Made by a program: the position numbers and the translations under genes. Shown here piece by piece: positions 3,637-12,355 of a stretch of 15,758 bases of DNA (its first letter is position 1; each line of letters starts with the position of its first letter). Below the pieces are notes generated by a model. It was not told where the DNA came from. It did not search any database and worked only from the letters and a program-made list of their open reading frames with translations. Source of the stretch: Treponema sp. (lineage in GTDB: Bacteria; Spirochaetota; Spirochaetia; Treponematales; Breznakiellaceae); assembly GCA_031278025.1 (NCBI GenBank), contig JAITLF010000082.1:1-15758 (forward strand), written 5' to 3'.

Positions 3637-4011
3637 TTATCCCGCCTCAAGAACAACCATGGCTATCGCGTTATCCCGCTCATGGGTCAACGAAAGATGT
3701 ATTCTGTCGGCCCCGCATCGTTGCAAGGCCGCAAGGGCGGTCCCAAATATCCCGATTTCCGGCCTTCCGTTATGGCGATTCACCACCATGATGTCTTTCA
3801 ACACTATCCCCGCAAGTCCCGTCCCCAGGGCCTTGCCAAAGGCCTCCTTCGCGGCAAACCGGGCCGCCAGGGACAGTTCCGCAGCGGCCCCCTTAGCAAG
3901 GGCCGACGAAAGTTCATCGGGGTGAAAATACCGTTCAGGCAAGCCCGGTATCCTGAGCCACCGCTTTAACCGGTCAACATGAACCACATCTACGCCTATA
4001 CCGACTATCAT
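3637..4011 (-). CDS. acpS: holo-[acyl-carrier-protein] synthase AcpS
   Basis: AcpS transfers 4'-phosphopantetheine from CoA to the serine of apo-ACP, switching on fatty-acid synthesis. The 124-residue length is normal for the AcpS-type transferases. The diagnostic motifs are GIGVDVVHVDRL at residues 4-15, with metal ligand Asp8, and RFAAKEAFGKALGTG at 51-65, with Glu56 and Lys60. The C-terminal HLSLTHERDNAIAMVV is the usual strand-and-helix signature. The start ATG overlaps the cdaR stop (ATGA), so translation is likely coupled. Confidence 0.97.
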   Translation of the reverse strand: MIVGIGVDVVHVDRLKRWLRIPGLPERYFHPDELSSALAKGAAAELSLAARFAAKEAFGKALGTGLAGIVLKDIMVVNRHNGRPEIGIFGTALAALQRCGADRIHLSLTHERDNAIAMVVLEAG

Positions 4012-5036
4012 AGCTGCTCATCCTCGATCTGGTCCCCGTCATTTTTCCCGTTCTCTCCGTCCTCCCCGTTCAGGGGAACGGCCGTAACATCCACGGATGG
4101 AGGAACGACGCTGCCGATCAGGGTGAAAGACTGGGGGATGTCCGCCTGAACCGGCAGGGTATACACGCCGCCTTCGGTGATGAGGGAACAATCCACGTAC
4201 AGGATGTCCATCCCGGGCTCAAAGGACTCAATCTCGCTTTGAGGCCCTTCAATGCGTATGTTCCCAGTTTCCACCGCCACAGTCCCCTCAAAGTCCCCGC
4301 TAAGACCGCGAATTCCAATAGACAAACCTTCAAAACTCCGTATCATGATGTATTGTCTAACCAGTCCCCGGAATTCGGTTATCCCATCCCCCCGGATAAT
4401 CAGCAGGGGGTCCCGGTTTATAATGTGTACTGTGACGGTAAAATCTTCGCTTCGCCCGCCCAGATCGATAACCCCGGTGTATAATTCCGAAAGGCCGCTC
4501 ATACGCCGCAGCGGGCCGTCCACCACCACCTGAGTAGGGGTCAGGGTGCGGGACACCAACTCATATCCTTCCGCCAACTCCCCCTGGATATCGGGTTTCA
4601 GGGGGACATACTTGCTGATCTTCCGATCCAACTCAATAGAGACTTCCGGGGGGTCCACGCTGATTTCCAGGGGATCAACCCCCAGGGCTGTCCCCTCCCG
4701 GCGAACCTGTACCGGCACCCGGTACACCCCTTCGGCAGTGTACTTGGAAAGGTCCAGGTAAACATCAATGTCATCCTCCAATATGGGATAGATGCTGTTT
4801 GCCTCCCCCCGCAGAGTAACCCGGACCATACGGGGATAAGAGCTGGCGTGAACCAGATTTCCGCTCATTTTTTCTATCCGCAAGGGGGCTGAAAAAAACC
4901 GGTTCTCCAAAAGGCTTGTACGGTGAAACACAAAAAGAATAACCGCCAGGGCCACTGAGAGGACCTTAACATGCCAGTTCGCGGCAATTTTGGCAAGAAT
5001 TTTTTCGCTGTTCCAGAATGTCTTTTTTTTCATCAT
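4008..5036 (-). CDS. cdaR: YbbR/CdaR-type protein, membrane-anchored regulator of diadenylate cyclase
   Basis: The 342-residue protein has an N-terminal cytoplasmic stretch, one membrane helix at about residues 23-38 (VKVLSVALAVILFVF), and an extracytoplasmic part with several YbbR-type beta repeats. Typical repeat elements are VRVTLRGEANSIYPIL, DIDVYLDLSKYTAEGVYRVP, VVVDGPLRRM and IRIEGPQSEIESFEP. The C-terminus is a low-complexity acidic Gly/Asn tail of about 20 residues. In Firmicutes CdaR binds and tunes CdaA and is encoded next to it. The same order here, with a 5-base gap after cdaA, supports the assignment. Two tandem ATGs at 5036 and 5033 leave the exact start open by one codon; the Shine-Dalgarno is weak. 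Confidence 0.9.
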   Translation of the reverse strand: MMKKKTFWNSEKILAKIAANWHVKVLSVALAVILFVFHRTSLLENRFFSAPLRIEKMSGNLVHASSYPRMVRVTLRGEANSIYPILEDDIDVYLDLSKYTAEGVYRVPVQVRREGTALGVDPLEISVDPPEVSIELDRKISKYVPLKPDIQGELAEGYELVSRTLTPTQVVVDGPLRRMSGLSELYTGVIDLGGRSEDFTVTVHIINRDPLLIIRGDGITEFRGLVRQYIMIRSFEGLSIGIRGLSGDFEGTVAVETGNIRIEGPQSEIESFEPGMDILYVDCSLITEGGVYTLPVQADIPQSFTLIGSVVPPSVDVTAVPLNGEDGENGKNDGDQIEDEQL

Positions 5037-5041
5037 TACTT

Positions 5042-5911
5042 CTATTCTGCCTGCATAGCGTCTAAAGCCGCAGCCGGCAAACCAGCCGTATCGCTTTCAC
5101 GGGGATCCATACCTTCCGCCGGGGTTCCGTCCGGGGCGGCGCCCCGGACGCCCCGGTCCAAAAGTTCCCTCAGTTTACGGGTCGCCTCTATAGGGGACAG
5201 GTCGTAGTAGAGTTTCCCATCGTAGGCCAGGGAAATAGCCCCAGTCTCTTCGGAAACCACCAAAATCACCGCATCGCTCTGTTCCGACATCCCCAGGGAA
5301 GCCCGGTGCCGGGTTCCAAAACTCTTCCTGATGTCCTGCTGTTCCGACAGCGGAAGGAAGCATCCCGCCGCCACAATGCGGCCGTTCTGTATAATCATAG
5401 CCCCGTCGTGAAGGGGGGTATCGAATTCAAAAACGGTAACGATCAGACTGGATGATATTTCCGCATTCAGTCTGGTTCCTGTATCGACAATGTTCCTTAG
5501 ATTGACCCGCCGGGGGAAAACCACCAGGGCGCCCCGTTTCTGCTGAGACAGGATCTCCGCCGCGGTAACCACCGCTTCAAGCTGGCCTATACGGGGCTTG
5601 CTGCCGGGCCTGAATAATTCCCCCTGCCCCAGCCGTATGATGATCTTCCGCAGCTCAGGCTGAAACACAATAGCTATAGCGATAAAAAGCCCCGGGGCCA
5701 TCTTGTCTAAGATCCATTGAAGGGTGGTCAACTTGAATAAGTACGCAACCCCGTACACCAGGGCCAGCAGTCCCGCTCCTCTAACAAGCTGCGCCGCCTG
5801 GGTTTTTATCAAAAGCTCGTAGGCTTTATAGAGTAAAAACGCCAGGATCGCAATGTCCAGGATAGGACGAAAAAAATCATACCCGGTCTGAAAGCGCTGA
5901 AACCATTCCAT
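5042..5911 (-). CDS. cdaA: Membrane diadenylate cyclase CdaA (c-di-AMP synthase)
   Basis: CdaA condenses two ATP into cyclic di-AMP, a second messenger for potassium, osmotic and cell-wall homeostasis. Three N-terminal membrane helices are visible, at about residues 16-35, 43-59 and 72-84, followed by FQPELRKIIIRLG. The DAC catalytic domain covers about 110-250. It has the DGA motif in TPLHDGAMII (Asp169-Ala171) and the RHR motif in GTRHRASLG (201-203), so it should be active. KRGALVVFPRRVNL aligns with the family's GALIVIER region but has an unusual Pro-Arg-Arg. About 35 residues after the domain are low-complexity Gly/Ala/Pro. AGGA lies 8 bases before the ATG, and the gene starts 13 bases after dxs. 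glmM, often third in cdaA-cdaR-glmM clusters, is absent here; acpS takes its place. Confidence 0.96.
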   Translation of the reverse strand: MEWFQRFQTGYDFFRPILDIAILAFLLYKAYELLIKTQAAQLVRGAGLLALVYGVAYLFKLTTLQWILDKMAPGLFIAIAIVFQPELRKIIIRLGQGELFRPGSKPRIGQLEAVVTAAEILSQQKRGALVVFPRRVNLRNIVDTGTRLNAEISSSLIVTVFEFDTPLHDGAMIIQNGRIVAAGCFLPLSEQQDIRKSFGTRHRASLGMSEQSDAVILVVSEETGAISLAYDGKLYYDLSPIEATRKLRELLDRGVRGAAPDGTPAEGMDPRESDTAGLPAAALDAMQAE

Positions 5912-5924
5912 GTGTTTAATCCTG

Positions 5925-7967
5925 TTATAAGAAGGAGGAAGCCGCGGACTTGCTCCGCACGTCCGGCCCTTCTACAGGGGCGTTGCCCTCATCGGTTTGG
6001 AACGGCCGCGTTTGATAAAAATAACCGGCATCGTTCTTTTCCGCAACGCGCCTCATAAGATCCCGGAATACATTCAACACGCGGGAAGCGATACCAGGAC
6101 CATCAAGGCCGTTGAAACGGAGGAGTTCTTCCCGGCTGCCCTGCGCGATAAAGCCTTCCTCTACCCCCAAAACCAGGATACGGGCAGGCGAATTCCGGCG
6201 GAGGGCGAGACCGGCGGCATATTCCCCAAAGCCGCCCTGGCGCATCCCCTCCTCAATGAAGGCAACCATCTTGTAGCGCCTGAGTATATCGCCAAGATAG
6301 TCTTCGTCTATGGGCTTGAGAAACCTGAGGTTATAAAGGTCCGCCCCTATGCCCCGGCGGGAAAGGAGTTCCGCCGCTTCCCGGACCTGGGGATAAAGGC
6401 CGCCGGTAAAGGCCAGGCACAGCGGAGCGTCTTCGCGGCGGATAAAGACCCCCCGGCCCTTTTCCAGGGGCAGGGAAAAGGCGGCTTCCTCATCCGGGCA
6501 GGCGGCTTTGGGGTAGCGGATCACCGAGGGACCCGGTTCGGCCAGAGCCCAGTCCAGCATGTTCCGGAGTTCCCCGCCGCCTGCGGGGGCCAGGATGGTC
6601 ATATTCGGAGCGGAGCGGAAGAGGCTGATGTCGAAGAGGCCCTGATGGGTCTCCCCGTCATCCCCAACAAAGCCCGACCGGTCCAGGGCGAATACCACCG
6701 GCAACCCCTGAAGGCTTGTATCGTGGATAACCTGATCCGCCGCACGCTGAATGAAGGTCGAATAAACAGCCGCTACGGGCCGCAGCCCCCGGGCGGCCAG
6801 CCCGGCGGCGAAAGTAACGGCGTGTGCTTCGGCAATACCCACGTCAAAGAACCGTTTGGGAAACTGGATTTTAAAGGGAGACAAGCCCGTCCCCTTCTCC
6901 ATAGCGGCGGTGATCGCCACTACCCTGCCGTCACGGGCGGCCGCTTCCCGCAAGGAAGCGCTGAAGGCCCCGGTAAAGGACATTCCCCCGCCGCCTGAGG
7001 AATCCCTGTCCCTGGCGCGGACGGCGCCTGGGATCAAACCGCCTGACACCGAAAAAGAAGAAACCCCGTGGTAACTGCCGGGATCGTCCTCGGCAAAGCC
7101 GTAACCCTTGCCCTTCCGGGTTATCACGTGGATAACCACCGGACGGCCGAGCTTTCTGACATCCCGAAACACCTGTTCCATCTGCTGGATATGGTGGCCC
7201 TCAATAGGCCCCACATACTCGAATCCCAAGTCCACAAAAAAATTATCGGTATAAAAGACCGCTTTAACCGCCCGTTTCATACGGACCACCAGATCGTAAA
7301 AGGCTTCGCCGATAATGGGCAGGCTCTTGGCCATGTCGTCAAATTTCCGGCGGAAACTCTGGTACCTGGCCTGCATACTCAGGCGGCTTAAGTATTTGGA
7401 AAGCCCCCCTACATTAGGGCCTATGGACATCTTATTGTCGTTGAGCACCACCACTAACGGGAGGGCAAGCTGCCCCGCATGAGACAGCGCTTCATAGGCA
7501 AGGCCGCCGGTCAGGGCGCCGTCGCCGATAACGGCCACAACCCGGCCATCTCCCCCCAGGATACGCTCGCCGGTAAGGAGCCCCAGGGCGGCGGAAATGG
7601 AGGTGGAGGCATGGCCGGTGTTGAACACATCGTGGGGGCTTTCGGAATGTTTGGGGAACCCCGCGATTCCGTTTGCCCGGCGGAGGGTCCCAAAGGCTTC
7701 AAACCGGCCGGTTAGCAGCTTATGCGTATAGCACTGGTGGCCCACATCCCAGACTATCTTGTCATGAGGAGACTGAAACACCCGGTGCAGGGCTATCGTC
7801 AGTTCCACGACCCCCAGATTAGAAGCCAGATGCCCCCCGTTCCGGCTGACGGTAGACACGATTACCCTGCGGATCTCGGCGGCCAACCCGTTTAATTCAG
7901 CGTCCGTAAGGTTTCTGATATCCTCCGGTCCCTTGATGCCGGATAAACGCAGGTTAGCCTGACGCAT
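5925..7967 (-). CDS. dxs: 1-deoxy-D-xylulose-5-phosphate synthase
   Basis: Dxs is the thiamine-diphosphate enzyme that joins pyruvate and glyceraldehyde-3-phosphate in the first step of the MEP isoprenoid pathway. Landmarks are GGHLASNLGVVELTIALH (His46), WDVGHQCYTHKLLTGR (His77) and FNTGHASTSISAALG (His119). The ThDP/Mg motif runs from GDGALTGGLAYEAL (148-) to LNDNKMSIGPNVG. The pyrimidine-domain motif is DVGIAEAHAVTFAAGLA, and a transketolase C-terminal domain ends near SRVLNVFRDL. The protein is 680 residues, longer than the usual 620-640; a hydrophilic tail of about 50 residues at the C-terminus accounts for most of this. The ATG at 7967 follows GTAGGGTGAT. Only about 33 bases separate the start from the terminator hairpin upstream, so dxs may depend on readthrough or on a promoter within that gap. 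Confidence 0.97.
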   Translation of the reverse strand: MRQANLRLSGIKGPEDIRNLTDAELNGLAAEIRRVIVSTVSRNGGHLASNLGVVELTIALHRVFQSPHDKIVWDVGHQCYTHKLLTGRFEAFGTLRRANGIAGFPKHSESPHDVFNTGHASTSISAALGLLTGERILGGDGRVVAVIGDGALTGGLAYEALSHAGQLALPLVVVLNDNKMSIGPNVGGLSKYLSRLSMQARYQSFRRKFDDMAKSLPIIGEAFYDLVVRMKRAVKAVFYTDNFFVDLGFEYVGPIEGHHIQQMEQVFRDVRKLGRPVVIHVITRKGKGYGFAEDDPGSYHGVSSFSVSGGLIPGAVRARDRDSSGGGGMSFTGAFSASLREAAARDGRVVAITAAMEKGTGLSPFKIQFPKRFFDVGIAEAHAVTFAAGLAARGLRPVAAVYSTFIQRAADQVIHDTSLQGLPVVFALDRSGFVGDDGETHQGLFDISLFRSAPNMTILAPAGGGELRNMLDWALAEPGPSVIRYPKAACPDEEAAFSLPLEKGRGVFIRREDAPLCLAFTGGLYPQVREAAELLSRRGIGADLYNLRFLKPIDEDYLGDILRRYKMVAFIEEGMRQGGFGEYAAGLALRRNSPARILVLGVEEGFIAQGSREELLRFNGLDGPGIASRVLNVFRDLMRRVAEKNDAGYFYQTRPFQTDEGNAPVEGPDVRSKSAASSFL

Positions 7968-8045: not shown

Positions 8046-8135
8046 CTATTTATTCTTATGCCGATTTTTTCTGAGTTTCTTTTTACGTTTATGGGTTGCA
8101 ATCTTTCTGAGTTTGCGCTTTCTTCCGCAGGGCAC
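8046..8135 (-). CDS. Tiny basic ribosomal protein, bS22/mS38 (AURKAIP1/COX24-domain) type
   Basis: This is a 29-codon gene. Translation from GTG at 8135-8133 starts MPCGRKRKLRK, passes through IATHKRKKKLRKNRHKNK and stops at TAG 8048-8046. More than half of the residues are Lys or Arg, and the ATHKRKKKLRKNRHK core is the signature of the short bacterial AURKAIP1/COX24-domain proteins. That family includes mycobacterial small-subunit protein bS22 and mitochondrial mS38. A strong AAAGGAGGGG Shine-Dalgarno lies 7 bases upstream, a good promoter (8177-8205) precedes it and a terminator follows, so the gene is well delimited. The likely role is a small-subunit ribosomal protein near the decoding centre; this rests on family resemblance recalled from memory. 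A longer overlapping minus-strand frame (8194-7892) lacks such support. Confidence 0.88.
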   Translation of the reverse strand: MPCGRKRKLRKIATHKRKKKLRKNRHKNK

Positions 8136-8205: not shown

Positions 8206-8255
8206 TAGGGCGCTTAAATCATCGAAAACCCGCCGCCGGTATTGCCGTCAGGCGC

Positions 8256-8675
8256 CTTTGCGGCCAATTCCGGAGTATTCCTGATTAAGAATGGAGTATT
8301 CCTGATCAAGAATGGAGTATTCCTGATCAAGAATGGAGCATTCCTGATCAAGAATGGAGCATTCTTGATCAAGAATGGAGCATTCTTGATCAGGAATGGA
8401 GCATTCTTGATCAAGAATGGAGCATTCTTGATCAGGAATGGAGCATTCTTGATCAGGAATGGAGCATTCTTGATCAGGAATGGAGCATTCTTGATCAGGA
8501 ATGGAGCATTCTTAATCAGCACGGGGGCCTTTCTGATCGAACAATGAGCCTTTTTGATCGAACAATGAGCCTTTCTGATCGAACAATGAGCCTTTTTGAT
8601 CGAACAATGAGCCTTTTTGATCGAAGCGGGGGCCTTTGCGATCGAACAATGAGCCTTTGCGGGCGGTACAGGCGC
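8256..8675. repeat. Array of twenty 21-bp tandem units centred on GATC, in a divergent intergenic region
   Basis: The units run without indels from 8256 to 8675. Family A is units 1-12, starting at 8277, with a 16-base core like ATTCTTGATCAAGAAT and a 5-base link GGAGC or GGAGT. Family B is units 13-18, starting at 8529, with core CTTTYTGATCGAACAA and link TGAGC. The outermost units (8256-8276 and 8655-8675) keep the 21-bp register but are degenerate. Sixteen units hold GATC at the same position; unit 1 has GATT and unit 12 has AATC. The cores at 8361 and 8403 are perfect 16-bp palindromes. Because 21 is a multiple of 3, long open frames result on both strands (heptads GAFLIKN or MSLFDRT on plus; NAPFLIK or KAHCSIR on minus), but none has a ribosome-binding site. 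The array lies between the divergent promoter near 8200 and the ATP-grasp gene at 8745. Its function is unknown. Confidence 0.95.
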
Positions 8676-8744
8676 TCCGGTAACCCCGCGGGCGGCAAAA
8701 CTCAAGACTATGGTTAAGCGGGGAGCTTCCCGCGGGGGTACACT

Positions 8745-10424
8745 ATGACGGCGGATCGGACACTTATCATTCTTGGCGCGGGGATCATGCAGGGACCTTC
8801 CATCTCCCTTGCCCGGAAGATGGGGCTTAAGACCCTGGTGGTTGACGGGGACCCCCAGGCAATCCGGGCTTCCTGGGCGGACCGGTTTGAACACCTCGAT
8901 CTTAAAGATAAAGAAGGGATTGAGGCGCTGGCCCGGTCCGTGCAAAAAGAAGGCGGTCTTGGCGGCATCATGACCGCGGGCACGGATTTTTCCGCCACCG
9001 TGGCCTGGGTCGCCCAGCGCCTGGGGCTTCCGGGCATCCCCTACGAAGCGGCCCTAAACGCCTCGGATAAGGAACGAATGCGCCTGAGTTTTCGCGCCGC
9101 CGGAATCCCGGTTCCTCAATTCGTGGTCCTGCGCGGCCTGCCCGAACGGGATTTTTCCCTTCCTTTTGCCTATCCCGCCGTGGTAAAGCCGGTGGACAAC
9201 ATGGGGGGCCGGGGCTGCCGGCGCATCAACTCCCGTGAAGAGCTGGAAGCCGCCGTGCCGGATGCCGTCAGGTTCTCCCGGTCTGGCCGGGTCATTGTTG
9301 AAGAATTTCTGGACGGCCCGGAATTTTCCGTAGACGCCCTGGTGTGTCAGGGGGAAATCTCCATCTGCGGCCTGGCGGACCGGCATATCTTCTTTCCGCC
9401 GTATTTTATCGAGATGGGGCATACCATGCCCGCCGCCCTGGACGCAAACTCGGCGGACAGCCTGCTTGCGGCGTTCAAAGATGGGGTCCGGGCCTTGGGA
9501 CTGGCCGGCGCGGGCAGTTTCGGCGCGGCTAAAGGGGACCTGAAGCTCACTTCCCGCGGCCCCCGTATCGGGGAGATCGCCGCCCGTCTTTCAGGCGGTT
9601 ATATGTCCGGCTGGACCTACCCGTACGCCTCCGGCGTGGAGCTTACCCGCGGCGCTATCCTGGCGGCCCTGGGGCAGGTTCCCCAAAACATGCGGCCCGC
9701 CCGGTCCTGGACCAGCGCCGAGCGGGCCTTCATTTCTATTCCGGGGATAATTCGTTCCCTGCACGGCCTGGAGGAAGCCGGCTCGTTACCCCACGTAAAG
9801 GATGTCTTTCCGCGGGTTCAGCCCGGCAGCAGGGTTACGTTCCCCGAAAACAACGTCGCCAAGTGCGGCAATGTCATCACCGCCGCCGCCCTCAGGGAAA
9901 CCGCCGTCAACGCCGCGGATTCCGCCGCCCGTACTATCCGCATACGTCTGGAAGTCCCGAATGCCGAAACCAGCGCTTTTCTGGACCGGTCTCCCGATGC
10001 GTGCCGCGGCGAAAGCGGCTTTCCCCCCAGCGCCTTTTCCCTTACTCCCGCTCTGGCAGCCTTAGCCGCGGCCCTTCCCGAATCGGCCCTGCCCGAACCG
10101 GCCCTGCCCGCAGCCGTGGCTGCGGCCCTCCCCGCAGCCTTAGCTGCTTCGTCCGGACAGCGCGGTCCTTCCCTCATCCCCTTCCCGGCCTTTGCCGAGT
10201 CGGGCCTCCGGGATTACCAGGGAAGGACGGTGGCGGAGAGTCTGAGGGCGGTTCGGGAACTTTCCGGGTTTCCGCTTGTCCTTGACGCCAATCCCGGCGG
10301 CCCCTTTCTGGGCCGCGGCTTCTGGGCCGCCCTTATCCGGGGCGGGTATCAGGGGGCCCTGTATTATGTGGACCGGTACGTTCCCGCGGAATTTCAGGAA
10401 GTTAGGGATGAAAAAAAAGGATGA
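8745..10424 (+). CDS. ATP-grasp ligase-like protein with C-terminal extension
   Basis: The 559-residue protein begins with a pre-ATP-grasp nucleotide-type fold (LIILGAGIMQGPSISLARKMGLKTLVVDGD). It resembles the opening of carboxylate-amine/thiol ligases such as PurK/PurT, biotin carboxylase and CarB. The ATP-grasp domain covers about 105-330. Key elements are YPAVVKPVDNMGGRGCRRI (Lys148, Gly-rich loop 154-157), VIVEEFLDGPEFSVDALV (Glu186-Glu187) and GPRIGEIAARLSGGYMSG (Glu277, Arg281), so catalytic function is plausible. The substrate is unknown. Residues about 432-470 are an Ala/Leu/Pro linker (repeated ALPE/ALPA). Residues about 485-545 form a separate short domain (DYQGRTVAESLRAVRELSGF, DANPGGPFLGRGFWAAL) that I do not recognise. 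GGGGG lies 5 bases before the ATG, and a small GCGGG/CCCGC hairpin (8718-8733) sits just upstream. The stop is 6 bases before the amidase start. Confidence 0.85.
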   Translation: MTADRTLIILGAGIMQGPSISLARKMGLKTLVVDGDPQAIRASWADRFEHLDLKDKEGIEALARSVQKEGGLGGIMTAGTDFSATVAWVAQRLGLPGIPYEAALNASDKERMRLSFRAAGIPVPQFVVLRGLPERDFSLPFAYPAVVKPVDNMGGRGCRRINSREELEAAVPDAVRFSRSGRVIVEEFLDGPEFSVDALVCQGEISICGLADRHIFFPPYFIEMGHTMPAALDANSADSLLAAFKDGVRALGLAGAGSFGAAKGDLKLTSRGPRIGEIAARLSGGYMSGWTYPYASGVELTRGAILAALGQVPQNMRPARSWTSAERAFISIPGIIRSLHGLEEAGSLPHVKDVFPRVQPGSRVTFPENNVAKCGNVITAAALRETAVNAADSAARTIRIRLEVPNAETSAFLDRSPDACRGESGFPPSAFSLTPALAALAAALPESALPEPALPAAVAAALPAALAASSGQRGPSLIPFPAFAESGLRDYQGRTVAESLRAVRELSGFPLVLDANPGGPFLGRGFWAALIRGGYQGALYYVDRYVPAEFQEVRDEKKG

Positions 10425-10430
10425 AAAAAT

Positions 10431-11801
10431 ATGAAGATGACTATGGTATTCCGATTTCTTTCGCTTGTTATTCCGGATATCTCTTTTACCGGCCGTAACT
10501 GCCGGGAGGGGGGGCCGGCGTCCGCGTTCTGGCTGCTGCTGGGTTTCCTCCTGTTCCCGTGTCCTCAGAGCTTCCCTCAGATTCCTCCGCCCGGTTCCAT
10601 TTCCGATCCGGTGGGGGTTCCGGTTCCCGGCCAGACCATAGCGCCGGGCCAGGTTCCTATTCCCGGTCCTTCGGGCGTCCCGGTTATACCTGCGCCGGCG
10701 GGCGGCGTCCCGGTTCAGCCAGCCGCTACAGGGGGCGGAACGGCGGGAACCGGCAATATTCCGCGTGTAGGGGCTGTCCCTGAAGAGGCTGTTCAGGCGG
10801 CTGCCGGAGTCCTGTCCCTGGACGAGGCATTGGGGCGAATCGGTCTCTCCGGCCTTGAACTCCACTGGGATCCCTTCTTCGGAACGGGGACCTTTATCGT
10901 GGCGGGACATACCCTCGCCTTTGATACCGGGAGTCCCGGAGAAACCGGCTTCATACTCCTGGATTTTCGGGAAATCTTCCCGGTTCCTGTTCCCTTTGTC
11001 CGCAACGGGCTCCTCTGGTTCCCCGAACCCTTTATCGCCGCCCTGAAACGGACGCTGGACGCCTTTGGCGATGACGACCGCTCCCGGTTCAGGATAGCCG
11101 CCATCGTAGTGGATCCGGGGCATGGGGGCAAAGACCCGGGAGCGGTGGGAAACCACGTAATCAACGGGAAACCGCTTAGGGTTATGGAAAAAGATGTTAC
11201 CCTGGCAACCTCAAAGTTCCTCCACGCCCGGCTCTCCGAGGCTTACCCGAACAAACGGATACTCCTTACGCGGGAGGGAGATACCTACCCTACCCTGGAA
11301 GAGCGGGTCGCCATCGCCAATTCGACGCCGCTTAAAGATAATGAAGCTATCGTGTTCGTTTCCATTCACGCTAACGCTTCTTTTAACCGGGAAGCCCGGG
11401 GCTTCGAGGTATGGTATCTCAGTCCGGAATACCGCAGAACCGTCATAGACGGGGATAAATACGCAGATTCCGCAGAAGTCATTCCCATCCTTAACGCCAT
11501 GCTGGAAGAAGAATTCACCACCGAAAGCATCATGATGGCCCAGTCCCTGGTTCGCAGGGTAGCTGAGGACCTGGGAAATCACCTTCCTTCCCGTGGTATC
11601 AAGGCGGAAGAGTGGTTTGTGGTGAGGAATGCCCGTATGCCTTCGGTTCTGGTAGAATTGGGCTTTGTCTCCAACAGGGAAGACGCCCTCTTCTTGTCGG
11701 ACGAGGTTCACTTGCGGAGTCTCGCAGACTCGTTATATAAAGGGATCGCGGATTTTGTGGCGGCTTTTGAGGGGACGGGAGGTTTTACGGCAATCAGATG
11801 A
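10431..11801 (+). CDS. N-acetylmuramoyl-L-alanine amidase (Amidase_3, zinc-dependent)
   Basis: It cleaves the amide bond between muramic acid and the stem peptide of peptidoglycan, in the periplasm. The catalytic domain is residues about 222-446. Zinc and catalytic residues are visible: His231 in VVDPGHGGKDPGA, Glu253 in MEKDV, His313 in VSIHANAS and Glu409 in VLVELGFVSN. A hydrophobic export signal (ASAFWLLLGFLLFPCPQSFPQ) lies at residues 30-50, after an unusually long n-region. A Pro/Gly-rich linker (51-110) and a small domain (about 127-212), possibly like copper-amine-oxidase N-domains, come before the catalytic domain. The ATG at 10431 has AAGGA upstream that overlaps the ATP-grasp stop, so the genes are coupled. 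It ends in ATGA, shared with the GerMN gene. Cell separation or cell-wall turnover is the likely role. Confidence 0.93.
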   Translation: MKMTMVFRFLSLVIPDISFTGRNCREGGPASAFWLLLGFLLFPCPQSFPQIPPPGSISDPVGVPVPGQTIAPGQVPIPGPSGVPVIPAPAGGVPVQPAATGGGTAGTGNIPRVGAVPEEAVQAAAGVLSLDEALGRIGLSGLELHWDPFFGTGTFIVAGHTLAFDTGSPGETGFILLDFREIFPVPVPFVRNGLLWFPEPFIAALKRTLDAFGDDDRSRFRIAAIVVDPGHGGKDPGAVGNHVINGKPLRVMEKDVTLATSKFLHARLSEAYPNKRILLTREGDTYPTLEERVAIANSTPLKDNEAIVFVSIHANASFNREARGFEVWYLSPEYRRTVIDGDKYADSAEVIPILNAMLEEEFTTESIMMAQSLVRRVAEDLGNHLPSRGIKAEEWFVVRNARMPSVLVELGFVSNREDALFLSDEVHLRSLADSLYKGIADFVAAFEGTGGFTAIR

Positions 11802-12355
11802 AACGGATTAACAAGGGCGCGGGGATCGCCGGTTTTTTCAGGAGGAAGTATTGCCACCGGTTGATATATCTTCTCTTATTGGCGGTTCCGGCTGTGTTTG
11901 AGTATTACTCCAGCGATTTTGTCAAACGGACTTTTGTGTTTTATGCCAGAGATACCGATGAAGCCGAAGTAGAGGAGCGTATCCTTCCCGCGATGCCTAC
12001 CCAGGAGCTTGCCCTCCGGCAATATGTTGAAGAAACCCTTTTGGGACCGATTTCACCGGAGGCTGAGCCTCTGTTTCCCCGGGAGACCGTTCTGAGGTCT
12101 TTGATTTACCAAGACGGAATCGTTTACGCCGATCTTTCTCTGGCCGCCGCCTTACCCTATTCCCCCGGTACGGAGGCTTTCAGAAGTTTGCGTATCCTCC
12201 ACCAGGGTATCAGGCGGGATTTCGGTTTTGTGCGGGATGTACGCCTGTTCATAGAGGGTAAAGAAGCGTATTATGAACGGTTTCGCGGTCTTTCCGTCTT
12301 CCACACCAATAGCCGGATGTGTTCGGCTGGTATTATCCTTCAGAAAAAAAATTAA
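11798..12355 (+). CDS. GerMN-domain membrane-anchored protein
   Basis: The 185-residue protein has a basic N-terminus, one membrane or signal-anchor helix at about residues 21-37 (LIYLLLLAVPAVFEYY) and an extracytoplasmic GerMN-like domain at about 65-165. The domain match rests on ALRQYVEETLLGPISPEAEP, IYQDGIVYADLSLAAA and SLRILHQGIRRDFGFVRDVR. GerMN domains are known from spore germination protein GerM and from cell-wall-associated proteins, often encoded beside amidases. Its start overlaps the amidase stop by 4 bases (ATGA), so a joint role in peptidoglycan remodelling is the natural inference. Spirochaetes do not sporulate, so a germination role is excluded. Confidence 0.8.
   Translation: MKRINKGAGIAGFFRRKYCHRLIYLLLLAVPAVFEYYSSDFVKRTFVFYARDTDEAEVEERILPAMPTQELALRQYVEETLLGPISPEAEPLFPRETVLRSLIYQDGIVYADLSLAAALPYSPGTEAFRSLRILHQGIRRDFGFVRDVRLFIEGKEAYYERFRGLSVFHTNSRMCSAGIILQKKN

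Follow-up and report, generated by a model that had tools for sequence, protein, structure and literature searches.

Bacterial minisatellites, among them the VNTR loci used in MLVA, arise by local duplication and turn over in copy number, and we know of none with a unit length fixed across a whole family or with a density such as that reported below. CRISPR arrays, plasmid iterons and the GATC clusters of oriC are marked by regular spacing or by GATC density. REP, BIME and REPIN elements with their RAYT (TnpA_REP) transposases are described as short (20-40 bp) dispersed palindromic repeats (PMC2817692, PMC3733652, PMC3116915, PMC8266576), the units of BIMEs alternating in orientation (PMC2817692). 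The nearest published parallel found is the tandem repeats of Borgs, which are described as many, recent and independently arisen, lying within and between genes and virtually missing from host genomes (PMC9879509). Borg units are perfect, without SNPs and A-rich, with units of 18, 20 and 21 nt named and a mechanism described there as not established (PMC9879509), whereas the units described here vary in a graded way and are mostly 21 or 23 bp long where their lengths peak. In the excerpts of the open-licence PMC literature at hand, Breznakiellaceae papers included, no description was found of an array class with units fixed at 21 or 23 bp. Such a class, wider than the single array from which we started, is the interesting part of this analysis.

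The starting array lies between two divergent gene runs in the window, by which we mean the whole stretch of 15,758 nucleotides that was analysed. The features are as follows.

3637..7967, minus strand: gene run left of the array, with dxs, cdaA (DAC domain), ybbR and acpS.
8046..8135, minus strand: very short basic open reading frame of 29 codons that heads the dxs operon, read by eye with a GTG start.
8210..8271, no strand: left junction; beyond 8209 the homology to G045, the closest relative found, is lost, and unaligned and remnant-like sequence leads to block A.
8272..8523, no strand: block A, 12 units of 21 bp with the consensus GGAGCATTCTTGATCAAGAAT.
8509..8529, no strand: A-to-B transition unit with AATC, the sole unit without GATC between the first and the last GATC.
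8530..8658, no strand: block B, about 6 units of 21 bp, TTTYTGATCGAACAATGAGCC, with GATC kept.
8659..8708, plus strand: right junction; homology to G045 runs from 8687 (by eye from about 8678).
8745..12355, plus strand: gene run right of the array, with an ATP-grasp ligase, an N-acetylmuramoyl-L-alanine amidase and a Germane (GerMN) domain protein.

Direct reading and counting bore out the first-pass annotation in its description of 20 successive 21-bp frames at 8256-8675 without a single indel, the first and the twentieth frames being remnant-like only. The 16 GATC in register were likewise recovered, ten at 8304-8493 and six at 8535-8640, spaced by 21 bp and once by 42 bp; GATC three times in register was counted 12 times in the window, compared with 0.01 expected from 200 shuffles. 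Tandem Repeats Finder reported 11.8 copies at 8272-8518 and 6.3 copies at 8527-8658, both with 0% indels. One kept core among otherwise varying bases, as had been proposed, was not what the units displayed; they fall into a block A (GGAGCATTCTTGATCARGAAT) and a related block B (TTTYTGATCGAACAATGAGCC), with variation graded along the array. The units are contiguous and head-to-tail, without alternating orientation, and the longest run of identical units is four (84 bp). The array differs from CRISPR arrays in lacking unique spacers, and from iterons and oriC clusters in that a Pfam scan of 15 proteins from the window gave no replication initiator and in that its place is not conserved. The 29-codon frame, labelled a ribosomal protein in the first-pass annotation, had no Pfam or NCBIfam match and the label was not confirmed; its peptide is 97-100% identical upstream of dxs in four other loci (L001, L002, L003 and L009). 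Two other repeats were observed in the window. One at 3-436 is a 102-bp tandem repeat of 4.3 copies and looks like an ordinary TPR-type coding repeat, and the other, of about 45 bp at 5930-5973 in the 3' end of dxs, recurs at 18 additional sites in G045 (78-94% identity) and is a separate dispersed short repeat.

Within the array, unit identity fell from 18.9/21 between neighbours to 10/21 between units 17 apart. Shuffling the unit order gave p 2e-4 for all 18 units and likewise for block A, and p 0.44 for block B alone. Neighbours were more alike than distant units in 23 of 26 arrays of at least 10 units, a test that took in block A of the window and the loci selected by GATC. Because units resemble their neighbours more than they do units farther off, the array grew by local tandem duplication, of which graded similarity is the mark, and not as twenty independently selected sites. 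With head-to-tail units and a history of local duplication, the window array has the character of a minisatellite.

Among the collection scanned, the window dxs was closest to that of a Treponema MAG locus (L001, 74%). The spirochete family of the window is Breznakiellaceae; the nearest named genomes are MAGs called Treponema or Spirochaetaceae, and their names read as a termite-gut origin. For repeat periods, 120 stretches (1,206,986 bases) from ten genomes (G001, G004, G007, G022, G043, G044, G045, G046, G064 and G124) were sampled. G004 was included because of a dxs locus described below (L004), and G022, G043 and G064 were picked for earlier 21-bp matches, so that the sample favours 21; the contigs of these genomes were taken by number, with those of G022 and G043 that already matched excluded. 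A dxs or ATP-grasp locus, or another repeat, was the reason for picking ten contigs of G045 and a single contig from each of G044 and G046. The 132 arrays of at least 2.5 copies comprised 42 with a period of 21 bp, 6 of 22 bp, 20 of 23 bp and 2 of 24 bp, and none at 19, 20, 25 or 26 bp. With at least 3.5 copies (n = 94) the numbers were 33 at 21 bp, 15 at 23 bp, 6 at 22 bp and 2 at 24 bp. Further peaks of the sample stood at 10 bp (9 arrays) and 14 bp (7 arrays); the 10-bp arrays of TAATCCGTGT type in L112, L113 and L116 occupy several places in one genome (G001). This pile-up at 21 and 23 bp agrees with the earlier view that the 21-bp period exceeds accident. Density (at least 3.5 copies) reached its maximum of 20.7 arrays per 100 kb in G022, and no array was present in the sampled stretches of G007, G044, G045, G046 and G124, although G045 has 23-bp GATC matches elsewhere in its genome. 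The arrays share local duplication and turnover with minisatellites and VNTR loci and differ in the fixed lengths and in the density of G022.

The same two lengths appeared when motifs repeated four times in register were searched in the 195 genomes of the family to which L001 belongs. GATC gave 2 genomes at 20 bp (both with 5-bp microsatellites), 36 at 21 bp, 11 at 22 bp and 39 at 23 bp, and CTAG gave 0, 36, 9 and 27, respectively; 68 of the 195 genomes had either motif at 21 or 23 bp. The 21-bp matches include perfect 7-bp microsatellites of 10-17 copies (L082, L086, L088 and L107; 7 x 3 = 21). The same unit families recur at several loci of one genome. Two arrays were seen in L004. One, following dxs, has a 21-bp period and a different sequence; the other, at the contig end (10519-10694), has a 23-bp period, alternates GATCGCGAC and GATCAGGAA half-units and runs off the contig. 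Among 68 other dxs loci (L013-L080, 1.05 Mb), none of the 8 arrays of at least 3.5 copies had a period of 21-23 bp. In the 394 genomes of the class, searched outside the family at 23 bp only, the GATC pattern was found in three, of which two belong to the family and one did not look tandem by eye; the CTAG pattern was found in G032 of the family and in G469, G545 and G575 outside it, which are possible other carriers. No match at 20, 21, 22 or 23 bp was found in G025, G027, G147 and G149, whose ATP-grasp gene lies on a contig of more than 1 Mb. Absence from well-assembled genomes, if general, may be the reason that no description was found.

Viral contigs gave at least 120 stretches with GATC five times at 21 bp, and among the 80 such matches listed (L295-L374), 58 lay in 21-bp tandem arrays, 7 in arrays of 7, 12 or 15 bp and 15 in none; the array class is therefore not exclusive to the family. 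Phage origin of the window array was considered and rejected, as the block A pattern had no exact match in viral contigs and the block B core had 17 single 16-base matches there, about what we estimate as chance for a collection of this size.

The reading that we favour, and regard as probable, is that the window array represents a type of dispersed tandem array that is frequent in its spirochete family, a mobile or recombining minisatellite with a unit-length ruler. Sequence changes from one array to the next, but the unit keeps to a length of 21 or 23 bp, or more rarely 22 bp; units multiply by local tandem duplication, a related array lies at an unrelated locus of another species, and the class is concentrated in one family with turnover of both sequence and place. 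Seeds would be spread by recombination or transposition and then amplified locally, perhaps helped by hairpin formation in block A, and the arrays may act as recombination joints. GATC and its helical phase would be by-products. Some ruler would measure the unit, either the geometry of a stem plus loop or an enzyme cutting both strands 21 or 23 nt apart. There is no need of a regulatory role to explain the window copy. A more specific proposal, which we put forward only tentatively and consider unlikely, is that the family has a dedicated activity that duplicates short DNA of any sequence in fixed lengths of 21 or 23 nt, more rarely 22 nt, for example by paired nicks of fixed stagger with fill-in or by hairpin-directed HUH cutting, and that the arrays so seeded are rearrangement joints as well.

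Arrays of related sequence in other genomes speak to the dispersal that the favoured reading assumes. The block A core at 21-bp spacing, with two mismatches allowed, matched 4 of the 195 genomes, the match in G005 being weak and its array having another core. In G184 an A-type array turns into B units (TTTCTGATCGAACAAAGAGCC, 20/21 identical to the window); it adjoins a sigma-70-like gene, with neither dxs nor the ATP-grasp gene within the 1.7 kb read, and the ATP-grasp gene of this genome lies on another contig. Arrays built on a similar core lie on four or more contigs in each of G131 and G135. Related arrays therefore occur at unrelated places in different species. Among the loci viewed by eye, L274 has an array with an inverted end, and its A-to-B transition AATGGAGCCTTTCTGATCGAACAA resembles the window unit at 8509..8529.

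The ATP-grasp gene itself is present in 165 of the 195 genomes. At its 30 best orthologous loci no array of the class was found before it, where L217 and L198 cover only 184 and 370 bp upstream, respectively. Upstream of the gene, L193 has a 28-bp repeat in 2 copies and L200 a 20-bp repeat in 2.0 copies, and the sole 21-bp row (L203, 2.2 copies) lies at the 3' end of the gene. The first-pass annotation had suggested looking for a conserved place beside the same genes, and had named absence or random placement in close relatives, with indels that break the period, as signs against its reading; across these 30 loci the place is not conserved and the array was not seen, and indels within the window array stand at 0%. 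A different gene precedes the ATP-grasp gene in 26 of the 30 loci (it was not found in L203, L204, L213 and L215), and from its sequence the C-terminal part of the product looks like a methyltransferase.

G045 is 94% identical to the window up to 8209 and 89% identical from 8687, on two contigs. On the right, the break cuts into the final codons of the gene found before ATP-grasp in G045, and only that tail is left in the window. The array thus sits on a synteny breakpoint, in an arrangement not seen at the 30 ATP-grasp loci, and the junction could be either a true rearrangement or an assembly join. A general link between arrays and breakpoints is only suggestive: in L004 dxs is immediately followed by an array, in the position that cdaA holds in several relatives, but L009 has neither cdaA within 10 kb after dxs nor such an array there. 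That metagenome assembly has falsely joined two loci, each ending in such an array, so that the junction but not the array would be chimeric, seems to us an outside chance. The contig switch of G045 across the array fits this, as does the position of 15 of 54 arrays at the end of a sampled stretch, three of them with exactly 118 bases; but identical units in the window run to 84 bp at most, the unit order is coherent and a gene tail is kept directly beside the right edge of the array.

Simple replication slippage that started from a chance seed and left unit length unconstrained is a rather less likely account of the arrays. It was named as the alternative in the first-pass annotation, and its first part stood, since the units did arise through local duplication and both sequence and place turn over as slippage would have it. 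Slippage alone predicts no fixed unit lengths, however, and 68 of the 132 arrays fall at 21-23 bp with none at 19, 20, 25 or 26 bp, the 20-bp matches in the 195 genomes are microsatellites only, and the 23-bp pattern is rare in the class outside the family.

The block A unit can pair over its full length (TCAAGAATG[GAG]CATTCTTGA) with a 9-bp stem and a 3-nt loop; the consensus stem of 9 compares with a shuffled mean of 3.8 (p 0.001), and the whole unit is a near-perfect palindrome. As single-stranded DNA, the part at 8419-8481 folded with a z of -4.35 and the left part at 8293-8355 with only -1.48. In block B, palindromy was not significant (p 0.63) and the fold z was -0.03. The array had no Rfam match at gathering score, and nearly all sub-threshold matches were microRNA families, which were taken as artefacts of a palindromic repeat. 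Across 49 non-redundant units, a set from which overlapping and similar (>80%) arrays were excluded, self-complementarity was in modest excess (mean z 0.85, p 1e-4), with 7 units at p<0.05. Covariation was tested on 50 of 54 arrays, GATC-found loci included; compensatory arm pairs on one diagonal numbered 29 against 26.5 expected from column shuffles, and 2 of the 21 arrays with at least two compensatory pairs had p<0.05. With palindromy modest and arm covariation not above shuffles, a hairpin ruler is weakly supported. L144 and L165 are among the arrays that seem by eye to keep stems through G-T pairs. Selection for an RNA hairpin was rejected, as compensatory pairs were not aligned on one stem axis beyond shuffles.

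Genes for enzymes that may act on hairpins were compared with array number. Y1_Tnp matches occurred in 119 genomes of the 195-genome set, with up to 21 per genome among the matches listed, so that high counts are lower bounds. At least 5 copies were present in 17 of the 26 genomes with at least 20 array matches and in 23 of the 169 others (odds ratio 12, p 7e-8, kinship uncorrected), with exceptions both ways: 9 of the 26 array-rich genomes have fewer than 5, and 14 genomes with at least 10 have fewer than 5 array matches. The excess of self-complementarity and the Y1_Tnp link point weakly to hairpin-directed single-strand enzymes. The gene of the hairpin nuclease SbcD was found in 13 of the 26 array-rich genomes and in 65 of the 169 others (p 0.29); it was commoner in genomes with any array match (38/68 vs 40/127, p 0.001). 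Loss of SbcD as the cause was rejected, array-rich genomes lacking sbcD no more often.

On these data, REP- or BIME-like arrays spread by REP-associated (Y1, HUH) transposases have a small chance of being the explanation, about equal to that of slippage. They resemble the present arrays in having several families per genome, here shared among loci, and the Y1_Tnp correlation and a GGAG directly 5' of the block A palindrome, GGAG being a tag of REPs, point the same way. The resemblance ends there: the units here are head-to-tail with a period of 21-23 bp, vary in sequence between arrays and are mostly not significantly palindromic (block A p 0.001, block B p 0.63, 7/49 of the class at p<0.05); the Y1 exceptions and uncorrected kinship weigh on the correlation as well.

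A quite unlikely reading, proposed in the first-pass annotation, is an operator, nucleoid or methylation-sensing array in which a protein or a Dam-type methylase would recognise GATC dyads that all face the same side of the DNA and would govern the two divergent operons. Its best evidence, and the evidence contrary to the favoured reading, is the core like TTCYTGATCARGAA in G131, G135 and G184, which is steadier than the more variable 7-bp spacer, as a selected binding site would show; this comparison is conditioned on the core, for which the search was made. The dyads of block A are perfect, and a promoter-like match on the minus strand (8205-8177) has the array on its upstream side, though such matches are at chance level (1 found vs 0.9). 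GATC as a selected element did not hold, however: among the 49 units it occurs in 3 (near chance), as does CTAG, with TTAA in 11, and at 21 bp CTAG-phased genomes are as many as GATC-phased ones (36/195 each). The window array being one of a large class of many unrelated sequences, its GATC looks incidental. Helical phasing fared no better as a rule, since 23 bp is 2.2 helical turns and arrays of that period are no less widespread than those of 21 bp (39/195 vs 36/195 genomes for GATC). Block B has no dyad symmetry, and with the array at 0/30 orthologous loci and another gene before ATP-grasp in most of them, the switch is unsupported.

That the array codes for a heptapeptide repeat (GAFLIKN / APFLIKN) is hardly credible. 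In its favour, frames are open on both strands and five database proteins have like repeats, but NCBIfam gave no match above cut-off, a palindromic unit yields a like peptide on both strands, and the common 22- and 23-bp arrays of the class cannot keep frame, so that coding cannot be the rule. A crude test of gene context in 54 arrays placed 6 in a long open reading frame, 13 between tandem frames, 6 between divergent and 0 between convergent ones, and 14 at an end, with 15 unclassed. The database proteins with FLIKN-type repeats (P0001-P0005, one named 'Tfp pilus assembly protein PilZ') are probably in-frame readings of such arrays.

In conclusion, the fixation of units at 21 and 23 bp whatever the sequence is explained neither by slippage nor by helical phasing. 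A fixed unit length would point to an unrecognised length-measuring process in bacterial DNA. In this family, the arrays would help to explain broken assemblies, given the 15 of 54 at a stretch end, and could supply joints for rearrangement.
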